A stretch of 64,000 nucleotides of DNA from Pseudanabaena sp. FACHB-1998 (GTDB lineage Bacteria; Cyanobacteriota; Cyanobacteriia; Pseudanabaenales; Pseudanabaenaceae): assembly GCF_014696355.1 (NCBI RefSeq), contig NZ_JACJQA010000014.1, positions 1-64,000 of the forward strand, in the 5' to 3' direction. The notes below the pieces were generated by a model that worked only from the letters and a program-made list of their open reading frames with translations, did no database searches and was not told where the DNA came from. The position numbers were made by a program, and so were the translations under genes. This document shows positions 36,607-55,993 of this stretch, piece after piece. How positions within the stretch are numbered: position 1 is the stretch's first letter; every line of letters begins with the position of its first letter.

Positions 36607-36643
36607 TAATAGAAAGGGTTCGCAACGCGAACCCTTTCTATTA
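36607..36643. terminator. Bidirectional terminator between dut and rpaB
   Basis: TAATAGAAAGGGTTCGC-AAC-GCGAACCCTTTCTATTA. The right arm includes the rpaB stop region. Confidence 0.8.
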
Positions 36644-37378
36644 AGATTGTTTTGCTTCTGAGCCATCAATGATGCGCTGAAACAGATAACCCGTCCCCCG
36701 CGCCGTCAAAATTAGCTCAGGATTACTAGGATCTTCTTCGAGCTTGGCACGTAGGCGCGAGATATGCACATCAACAACGCGAGTATCCACATGACGCTCT
36801 GGAGTATAGCCCCATACCTCTTGCAAAATTTCAGCTCTCGAAAAAGCCTCACCCGATCGCCCAACCAAAAGCTCCAACAAGCTAAACTCCATACCCGTTA
36901 AGCGAATACGCTCATCGGATTTATAGACTTGACGCTTATTGGTATCAATTTTGATCGTATTAATATGAATCACACCAGAACTGGGGATACCTGATGTGCC
37001 ATTGCGATCAAAGCGGCGCAAAACTGAACGAATTCGAGCTTCTAATTCCTTGGGAGAAAATGGCTTAACCACGTAATCATCTGCACCCAATTCCAAGCCC
37101 GTAATGCGATCGGCGACATCACCTAAAGCTGTCAACATAATGATCGGAATATCAGATTCCTTGCGTAGCTCCTGACATACCCCGTAGCCGTCGAGCTTTG
37201 GCATCATTACATCAAGAACCACCAAATCAGGATTTTCTTTATGAAAAACTTCGATCGCTTCTTCGCCATCTGCGGCGGTGACCACCTCGTAACCGATCAT
37301 CGAGAGACGTGTTTCCAGAATCCGACGAATACTTGCTTCGTCGTCCACAACTAGGATTTTTTCCTTATGGTTTTCCAA
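36641..37378 (-). CDS. rpaB: Response regulator RpaB
   Basis: OmpR-type regulator, essential in several cyanobacteria, that controls photosystem and high-light genes with the kinase NblS/Hik33. 245 residues. The receiver has the acidic pair in VVDDEAS, phospho-acceptor Asp in VVLDVMMPKLDG, the Thr in MLTALGD and Lys in VVKPFSP. The winged-helix domain has GMEFSLLELLVGR, EVWGY, RHVDTRVVDVHISRLR and GTGYLF. The start is TTG 37378, as a stop lies three codons upstream. It is divergent from a high-light-inducible gene with HLR1-like half-sites between. Confidence 0.93.
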   Translation of the reverse strand: MENHKEKILVVDDEASIRRILETRLSMIGYEVVTAADGEEAIEVFHKENPDLVVLDVMMPKLDGYGVCQELRKESDIPIIMLTALGDVADRITGLELGADDYVVKPFSPKELEARIRSVLRRFDRNGTSGIPSSGVIHINTIKIDTNKRQVYKSDERIRLTGMEFSLLELLVGRSGEAFSRAEILQEVWGYTPERHVDTRVVDVHISRLRAKLEEDPSNPELILTARGTGYLFQRIIDGSEAKQS

Positions 37379-37383
37379 GCCAG

Positions 37384-37478
37384 TTTACACTCCATTATGT
37401 TGCTAGCTGCAATTCAGTAAAATTTTATGATTTTACATATTTATTTAACTAAGTTTACAAGAAATCGGTCGTTACAAT
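37384..37478. promoter_or_regulatory. HLR1-like half-sites between rpaB and hli
   Basis: RpaB binds direct repeats of [GT]TTACA[AT][AT]. Two octamers here fit fully: TTTACATA (37432-37439) and GTTACAAT (37471-37478). Two more have one mismatch: TTTACACT (37384-37391) and TTTACAAG (37454-37461). Spacing is not the standard 2 bp between halves. Binding is an inference. Confidence 0.5.
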
Positions 37479-37510
37479 CCGAAAACAAAACTTAAAAAAT
37501 CAAAATCAAA

Positions 37511-37550
37511 GAGAGGAAGGGTGGTGCGAAGCGCCGCCATTATTCTCTTC
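37511..37550. repeat. Imperfect palindrome in the hli leader
   Basis: GAGAGGAAGGGTGGTGC around GAAGC and GCCGCCATTATTCTCTT, with several mismatches, about 95 bp before the hli start. Confidence 0.5.
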
Positions 37551-37643
37551 GGTTTTATGTACCGTCTACAAAGCTAAAGATCGCTTTTACTCTATGGGGT
37601 AGAATTGTATTAAGTTTTATGCAAAACAAGGACTTTTTTGATC

Positions 37644-37817
37644 ATGACTGAACCAAATCAAGTGCCACAGGCCGCCGACCCCAAAATGGGATTCAATACC
37701 TATGCAGAGCGCTTAAATGGTCGTGCTGCAATGATTGGATTTATTCTTGCGGTAGGGATCGAATTTATTACTGGCAAAGGGCTTTTGGCTTGGCTGGGTC
37801 TCATTGATATTAGCTAG
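37644..37817 (+). CDS. hli: High-light-inducible protein (one-helix Hli/Scp)
   Basis: 57 residues from ATG 37644 (MTEPNQVPQAADPKMGFNTY...). One membrane helix carries the chlorophyll-binding signature ERLNGRAAMIGFILAVGIE (22-40), the ExxNxRxAMIG motif shared with plant light-harvesting proteins. Such proteins bind chlorophyll and carotenoid near photosystem II and are induced by strong light. It is divergent from rpaB, the regulator known to control hli genes. Confidence 0.93.
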   Translation: MTEPNQVPQAADPKMGFNTYAERLNGRAAMIGFILAVGIEFITGKGLLAWLGLIDIS

Positions 37818-37829
37818 ACCCTTAATTAA

Positions 37830-37921
37830 GTAGTTAGGCATAATTAAAAACCAAAACCTGTGGCGCAAACTTTGAGTGCGCCACAGGCTTTGGTTCTGGG
37901 TTTTTAATTATGCCCAGCTAC
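37830..37921 (+). repeat. Long foldback after hli, about 40-bp imperfect arms
   Basis: GTAGTTAGGCATAATTAAAA to GGCGCA, then TGCGCCACAGG to GCCCAGCTAC. The core resembles the foldback at 8051-8152 (AACCTG[CT]GGCGCA). It probably also ends hli transcription. Confidence 0.75.
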
Positions 37922-55756: not shown

Positions 55757-55829
55757 TACCCCCAGGGGAATTCGAATCCCCGTCGCATCCGTGAAAGGGA
55801 TGTGTCCTAGGCCTCTAGACGATGGGGGC
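55757..55829 (-). tRNA. tRNA-Glu (anticodon UUC), copy 2
   Basis: 73 nt: acceptor GCCCCCA/TGGGGGT, D stem GTCT with AGAC, anticodon loop CCTTTCA, T arm GGGGA-TTCGAAT-TCCCC. CCA is not encoded. It is identical over its length to the copy 91 bp upstream (on the minus strand). In cyanobacteria this tRNA also supplies glutamate for tetrapyrrole synthesis. Confidence 0.97.
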
Positions 55830-55920: not shown

Positions 55921-55993
55921 TACCCCCAGGGGAATTCGAATCCCCGTCGCATCCGTGAAAGGGATGTGTCCTAGGCCTCTAGACGATGGGGGC
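55921..55993 (-). tRNA. tRNA-Glu (anticodon UUC), copy 1
   Basis: Same 73-nt sequence and structure as the copy at 55757-55829. The pair is a tandem duplication, including the 3' hairpin plan, although the hairpin sequences differ. Confidence 0.97.

Follow-up and report, generated by a model that had tools for sequence, protein, structure and literature searches.

Four KTTACA words between the divergent rpaB and hli genes of Pseudanabaena lie in a conserved block that is most likely the promoter and leader of rpaB

The 64-kb stretch of Pseudanabaena DNA analysed here as a whole (the window, which is also the reference for all identity figures to a single sequence) contains a divergent pair of genes, rpaB and a gene of the high-light-inducible (hli) type, with four KTTACA words in the gap between them. 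The observation of these words is sound, and the 117-bp block that holds them is important, most likely as rpaB's own promoter and leader. That the words are simply constituents of such an rpaB-dedicated block, kept under strong purifying selection, is the explanation we favour, with about even confidence. RpaB may feed back on its own gene; control of hli by the words is unlikely. A first-pass annotation had proposed that RpaB controls both genes from one region: the part that survives is that the words are real, are under selection beside rpaB and fit some role in its expression; the part concerning hli does not.

The pair itself and its 265-bp gap (37379–37643), as claimed in that annotation, are borne out by the coordinates, by the Pfam domains of one product and by the helix motif of the other. 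The minus-strand gene at 36641–37378 codes for an OmpR-type response regulator of 245 aa with a receiver and a winged-helix domain (Response_reg, 3.7e-34; Trans_reg_C, 8.6e-27), which we take to be RpaB; we place its start at a TTG, as an in-frame TAA lies three codons upstream. Of 291 genomes in the class, 285 have a match to it at E<=1e-90; it is also present in 36 of the 38 genomes of the family (f1) and, at 97–100% identity, in 24 of the 26 genomes of the genus (g1). The plus-strand gene at 37644–37817 codes for a 57-aa product to which Pfam gave no match at E 0.001, and relatives of it were found in other genomes. HLI or small CAB-like proteins are short, with a single helix bearing the motif E..NGR.AM.GF; this product carries AERLNGRAAMIGF, on which our assumption of its family membership rests.

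The divergent rpaB–hli arrangement is, in the loci sampled, a trait of the family, which we report as new: it is seen in 31 of the 36 rpaB-bearing family genomes (22/24 in g1 and 9/12 in other genera), and no hli-like frame was found upstream of rpaB in any of 104 loci outside the family, covered up to 1.5 kb and all for at least 600 bp. The exceptions within the family are a locus lacking any hli up to 1.5 kb from rpaB (L029; L-numbers denote single loci and G-numbers genomes), a locus whose contig stops about 300 bp upstream of rpaB, before any hli position (L030), and three g4 genomes in which the closest hli match lies elsewhere than rpaB. The 104 loci (26 named contigs and 78 others) were picked from the listed matches and not at random, so that a species may be counted more than once and the weakest matches are too thinly covered; L116, L118 and L119 (= L140–L142) and the weaker second matches L275–L277, of which L275 gave no start, were left out. 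The open literature, as far as it was covered and with subscription journals mostly outside its scope, yielded no statement of an rpaB–hli pair; its match for RpaB together with Pseudanabaena is PMC9025218.

The plus strand carries all four KTTACA hexamers of the gap, with starts at 37384, 37432, 37454 and 37471; two belong to exact RpaB half-sites of the form KTTACAWW, as the first-pass annotation had it: word A, TTTACATA (37432–37439; TATGTAAA on the minus strand), and word C, GTTACAAT (37471–37478). The two near matches that it added, word 1, TTTACACT (37384–37391), and word B, TTTACAAG (37454–37461), do keep the hexamer, but as one-mismatch eight-mers they are unexceptional, there being six such in the gap, three on each strand, which is the chance level (P 0.24). 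In 5000 dinucleotide shuffles of the gap, four hexamers on one strand have a P of 0.0002, four over both strands a P of 0.0022 and two full eight-mers a P of 0.027. When 265-bp stretches were taken every 5 bases along the window, 34 of the 12747 positions, exclusively from 37216 to 37381, held four plus-strand words, and none held four minus-strand words. Full KTTACAWW words are not enriched across the 64 kb (30 found against 24.9 expected).

The binding site of RpaB, HLR1, is described as two direct repeats, KTTACAWW-N2-KTTACAWW, with a period of 10 bp (PMC9241938, PMC13421787; here and below, citations refer to the accessible parts of the papers). The gap has two such half-sites, at 37432 and 37471, but not their 2-nt separation: the words are spread out, as had been noted earlier, with starts 48, 22 and 17 bp apart. 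A canonical HLR1 in the window's gap was rejected, for the best 18-mer matches at 13/16, which in shuffles is at chance (P 0.25). Genome-wide too, HLR1 with up to 2 mismatches shows no excess (292 against 340 for the reversed pattern). Over the whole gap, a P of 0.05 or below was reached in four of the 31 linked loci, namely L124 of a sister genus (15/16, P 0.01, 108 bp before hli), L115 (14/16, P 0.04), L121 (13/16, P 0.04) and L027 (13/16, P 0.02, in a gap that contains N), and these scores count against the reading favoured here; L123, also of a sister genus, has 14/16 at the place matching the L124 site (P 0.17). As to position, RpaB is reported to activate from −66 to −45 and to repress from −38 to +23 relative to the start site (PMC13421787), with activation also placed about 50–100 upstream (PMC11633204); HLR1 sites that mediate repression usually overlap the core promoter (PMC6331805, PMC13421787). 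For any hli start near 37612, the words would fall outside both ranges; for rpaB, going by the candidate hexamers discussed below, they possibly fall inside or near them.

The gap is strongly conserved on its rpaB side. Among the 22 genus loci with both genes (including L027, with a run of N in its spacer), identity to the window is 0.90–1.00 per 20-bp bin from 37376 to 37495; past that point it falls to 0.50, 0.28, 0.38, 0.30 and 0.45, and then returns to about 0.8 beside hli. Conservation thus collapses at 37496, well short of hli, and delimits a block of 117 bp (37379–37495), the probable promoter and leader of rpaB, from a variable spacer (37496–37595) and from a promoter-like block proximal to hli (37596–37643, plus strand) that has TAGAAT at 37600–37605. 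Over 276 genus pairs, the 117-bp block has a mean identity of 0.93 (median 0.96), against a mean of 0.58 at the fourfold sites of rpaB, and it is the higher of the two in 276/276 pairs, which reflects selection and not recent descent. The psaD promoter of the genus is likewise conserved over about 100 bp, so long conserved promoters are not peculiar to rpaB. The spacer includes a palindromic GC-rich repeat, the hairpin GGTGGTGCGAAGCGCCGCC at 37520–37538, and other members of the genus have comparable palindromes ahead of psaD.

The words mostly move with rpaB. In 20 of the 24 genus loci, the four hexamers lie at offsets of 5, 53, 75 and 92 from rpaB (L024 being counted among these, with its last three hexamers one base further), the exceptions being L028, L029, L031 and L032; meanwhile, the length of the rpaB–hli gap ranges from 242 to 545 bp across 22 loci. 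Offsets fixed to rpaB alongside a variable gap to hli support a block dedicated to rpaB. Word A reads TTAACATA in L028, L031 and L032. L029, which has no nearby hli, retains the sequence from word A through word B, whereas AAAACAAAACTTAA, from the hli-side end of the block, is missing.

Within the block, each word but one would have an explanation in the expression of rpaB itself. Between GGAG at 37393–37390 (minus strand), which is Shine-Dalgarno-like, and the TTG start, the interval is taken up by the hexamer of word 1, which may be just that spacer; words A and B would lie in or just upstream of the core promoter, and word C, further upstream, would be the sole word that promoter and leader leave unexplained. 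Past the unconserved spacer, hli would be served by its own promoter at 37596–37643. Word A sits in the AT-rich stretch where the rpaB −10 is expected. On the minus strand, word B reads TTGTAA (37455–37460), a possible −35 or upstream element, which is kept in 24/24 genus loci and 6/7 sister-genus copies (TTGTAG in L113), making it the best-kept word across the family. A possible −10 on the same strand is TAAAAT at 37422–37427, found in 18/24 genus loci and 27 nt from TTGTAA; an alternative TAAAAT at 37430–37435, overlapping word A, lies 19 nt away and is found in only 7/24. As the 27-nt gap is too long for a −35/−10 pair and the 19-nt one is so rarely kept, the assignment of hexamers is weak. 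In the sister genera, L123 and L124 have TATAAA 17 nt after TTGTAA, and in L113, L114, L122 and L120 no −10 hexamer at 15–19 nt reaches 5 of 6. A promoter scan gave another candidate on the rpaB strand, at 37421–37394, rather than the TTGTAA-based one. We infer that the block is the rpaB promoter, which hexamers are its −35 and −10, where transcription starts, and that any effect of RpaB here would fall on rpaB itself. If the −10 at 37422–37427 is right, words B and C would occupy about −39 to −63 relative to the rpaB start site, near the activating window of RpaB, which would favour autoregulation. RNA structure in the window's rpaB leader is not significant (−8.4 against −6.7, sd 2.4, in mononucleotide shuffles).

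On the hli side, the words lie 173–260 bp before the start codon, and the last 120 bp before the rpaB-linked hli of g1 have HLR1 scores of 10–13 in 22/22 loci, which is like the null. By contrast, among 16 loci of the genus with the GFTPYAELLNGRLA-type hli, 13 score 15/16 and the other 3 score 14/16, with a site of the form GTTATATTT[AC]TTTACATA or a close copy of it at −43 or −46 in all 16; a score of 15 or more in 120 bp has a frequency of 0.002 in mononucleotide shuffles. With such near-perfect sites in 16/16 loci, HLR1 in its normal form is probably in use in the genus. Other hli types compared score 11–14, so the missing of a clear HLR1 is not special to the rpaB-linked hli; the hli loci set against the rpaB-linked ones number 47 in all (46 from the genus and L317 from a sister genus), picked among the matches listed, with L135 (best 12) left out and L297 not represented.

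Further sites at other genes of the genus may be recorded here. The near-canonical HLR1 GTTATATTTATTTACATA stands at −43 of another hli (L134; G000:C20:231158–231175, minus strand) and is conserved in the genus. A short hli downstream of psaD (L133; G000:C23, about 356768) has overlapping 10-bp HLR1-like repeats on the minus strand, with a best single score of 13/16; many members of the genus have them at about −72 to −82. In stretches of up to 350 bp ahead of 25 psaD and 24 psaL genes, no KTTACA word stands at a common position, and these genes therefore provide no positive control for HLR1 in the genus. Several Nostoc-like loci have a word some 197 bp before rpaB, which was set aside since it seems to fall inside a divergent coding frame, read by eye as presumably radA.

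Comparison across the family brings out a second level of conservation within the block. Sister genera keep what appears to be a degenerate, newly recognized element around the near match TTACAAG of word B: in the window it spans 42 bp, 37454–37495, and reads TTACAAGAAAT..(AAT)..AAAACAAAACTTAA. It is found in 7/9 linked sister-genus loci, four by score and three by eye. With a 48-bp profile derived from g1, L115 scores 30, L113 20, L122 15 and L120 15, against at most −5.3 in a control of one mononucleotide shuffle per locus. L123 (1.2), L114 (−0.2) and L124 (−2.6) do no better than the unrelated L197 (0.9) and L033 (0.3) and were accepted by eye only, on a shared TTACAAGA and the letters following it; the linked L117 and L121 fall outside the top 25 profile matches. 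Best kept across genera is TTACAAGA, that is, word B, followed by AAT and AAAACAAAACTTAA; word C is not kept. The element lies about 170–645 bp from rpaB in the sister genera, often nearer to hli, with its start about 138–205 bp before that gene. Where the two genes are apart, in the g4 loci and at the hli of G003, scores run from −11 to 1.8, under the shuffled maximum of 8.2. A regulon of the element was sought and rejected: TTAAGTTTACAAGAAAT with up to 3 mismatches has 51 places against 32 for the reversed control, of which the window's own copy has 1 mismatch and a single other place has 2. Likewise, AAAACAAAACTTAA has no further exact copy in the genome, and allowing one mismatch gives 15 copies against 11 in the control.

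Several readings compete for these observations. At one extreme, the words could be a chance product of AT-rich sequence, as the chance-level counts of one-mismatch eight-mers and canonical pairs might suggest; yet the hexamer excess (P 0.0002) and a conservation far above that of fourfold sites leave this highly improbable, the comparison of the block with fourfold sites by itself already making it unlikely. The joint control of rpaB and hli by RpaB proposed by the first-pass annotation would accord with the linkage conserved in the family and with the 15/16 HLR1 of L124. Against it, the words keep a fixed distance only to rpaB across a gap of variable length, they would lie outside the range of −66 to +23 (PMC13421787) for any hli start near 37612, the hli promoter shows no HLR1 above chance, and words A and B persist in L029 where hli is not nearby; we regard it as improbable. 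The favoured reading, that the words belong to a block serving rpaB, has its own difficulties, as the distance of the element from rpaB in the sister genera would make for a very long leader there, and a promoter alone does not demand the one-strand excess of words.

That excess speaks for a second reading, in which A, B and C are half-sites bound by RpaB despite their spacing of 22 and 17 bp, and together form a non-canonical operator, within the core promoter or immediately above it, by which RpaB regulates its own gene. As repressing HLR1 sites normally overlap core promoters, this and the promoter reading are not exclusive. The invariance of the word C hexamer in 22 loci, the fixed words in 20/24 and the placement of B and C close to the activating range speak for such an operator. 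It stays a tentative proposal nonetheless: the 10-bp spacing is lacking and the best canonical score is at chance, word A decays in three loci, sister genera lack word C, the genus has near-canonical sites at another hli type, and in none of the 104 rpaB loci outside the family do the first 117 bp hold more than one word on the same strand (14/104 have one or more plus-strand words). Alternatively, the 42-bp element could serve both genes as an operator or upstream activating site for a factor other than RpaB, which would make the TTACA look of word B incidental. It would explain why the element is seen in linked sister-genus loci, starting about 138–205 bp before hli, is found at neither gene in the unlinked g4 genomes nor at the separated hli of G003, and has lost its hli-side half in L029, from which hli is gone. 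However, it was not found in the linked L117 and L121, within the genus its distance is fixed to rpaB only, and AAAACAAAACTTAA does not recur beyond the control level; we consider this unlikely. We would also venture, as a still less probable conjecture, that RpaB and HLI are locked as a divergent pair round the 42-bp element, read by RpaB in a non-HLR1 mode or by another factor, so that one switch sets both regulator level and photoprotection.

Set beside known systems, the gap resembles HLR1 promoters in its half-site word, fully matched by two of the four, and in adjoining a high-light-response gene; it departs from them in a spacing of 22 and 17 bp rather than 10, in a best canonical score of 13/16 that is at chance, and in that its words lie outside the hli core promoter and would be 134 bp or more upstream of a likely hli start. 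In Synechocystis 6803, scpB–E have HLR1 in the core promoters of these scp/hli genes (PMC6331805). The rpaB-linked hli is of the same gene family, and the genus has such a site about −43 of another hli, but the linked gene lacks it in 22/22 genus loci (scores 10–13). Response-regulator promoters that are autoregulated form a general class, which the gap resembles in having words like the regulator's own sites ahead of its gene, near the likely core promoter, and from which it differs in a spacing that is not that of RpaB, with feedback here only putative. RpaB is essential in PCC 7942 (PMC5785211), and no description of the control of the rpaB gene itself was found in the accessible parts of the open RpaB literature (PMC13421787, PMC6331805, PMC5785211, PMC9241938, PMC11633204). 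A probable promoter of such conservation, tied to a photoprotection gene in one sampled family, offers a small, defined fragment for tests of RpaB feedback. It also cautions against taking TTACA words dispersed around a promoter, on their own, for RpaB sites. Word C is the best single candidate for a putative RpaB half-site.

Beyond hli, between it and a signal peptidase II gene, 37831–37920 forms a long imperfect palindrome with ends like TTAATTATGCCCAGCTA; similar ends occur upstream of psaD in L221, and the palindrome may be a mobile repeat of the genus. Rfam, at the gathering threshold, reports three tRNAs only in the whole 64-kb window, and two tRNA-Glu genes, at 55757–55829 and 55921–55993, have the same anticodon and an equal score and lie about 90 bp apart.
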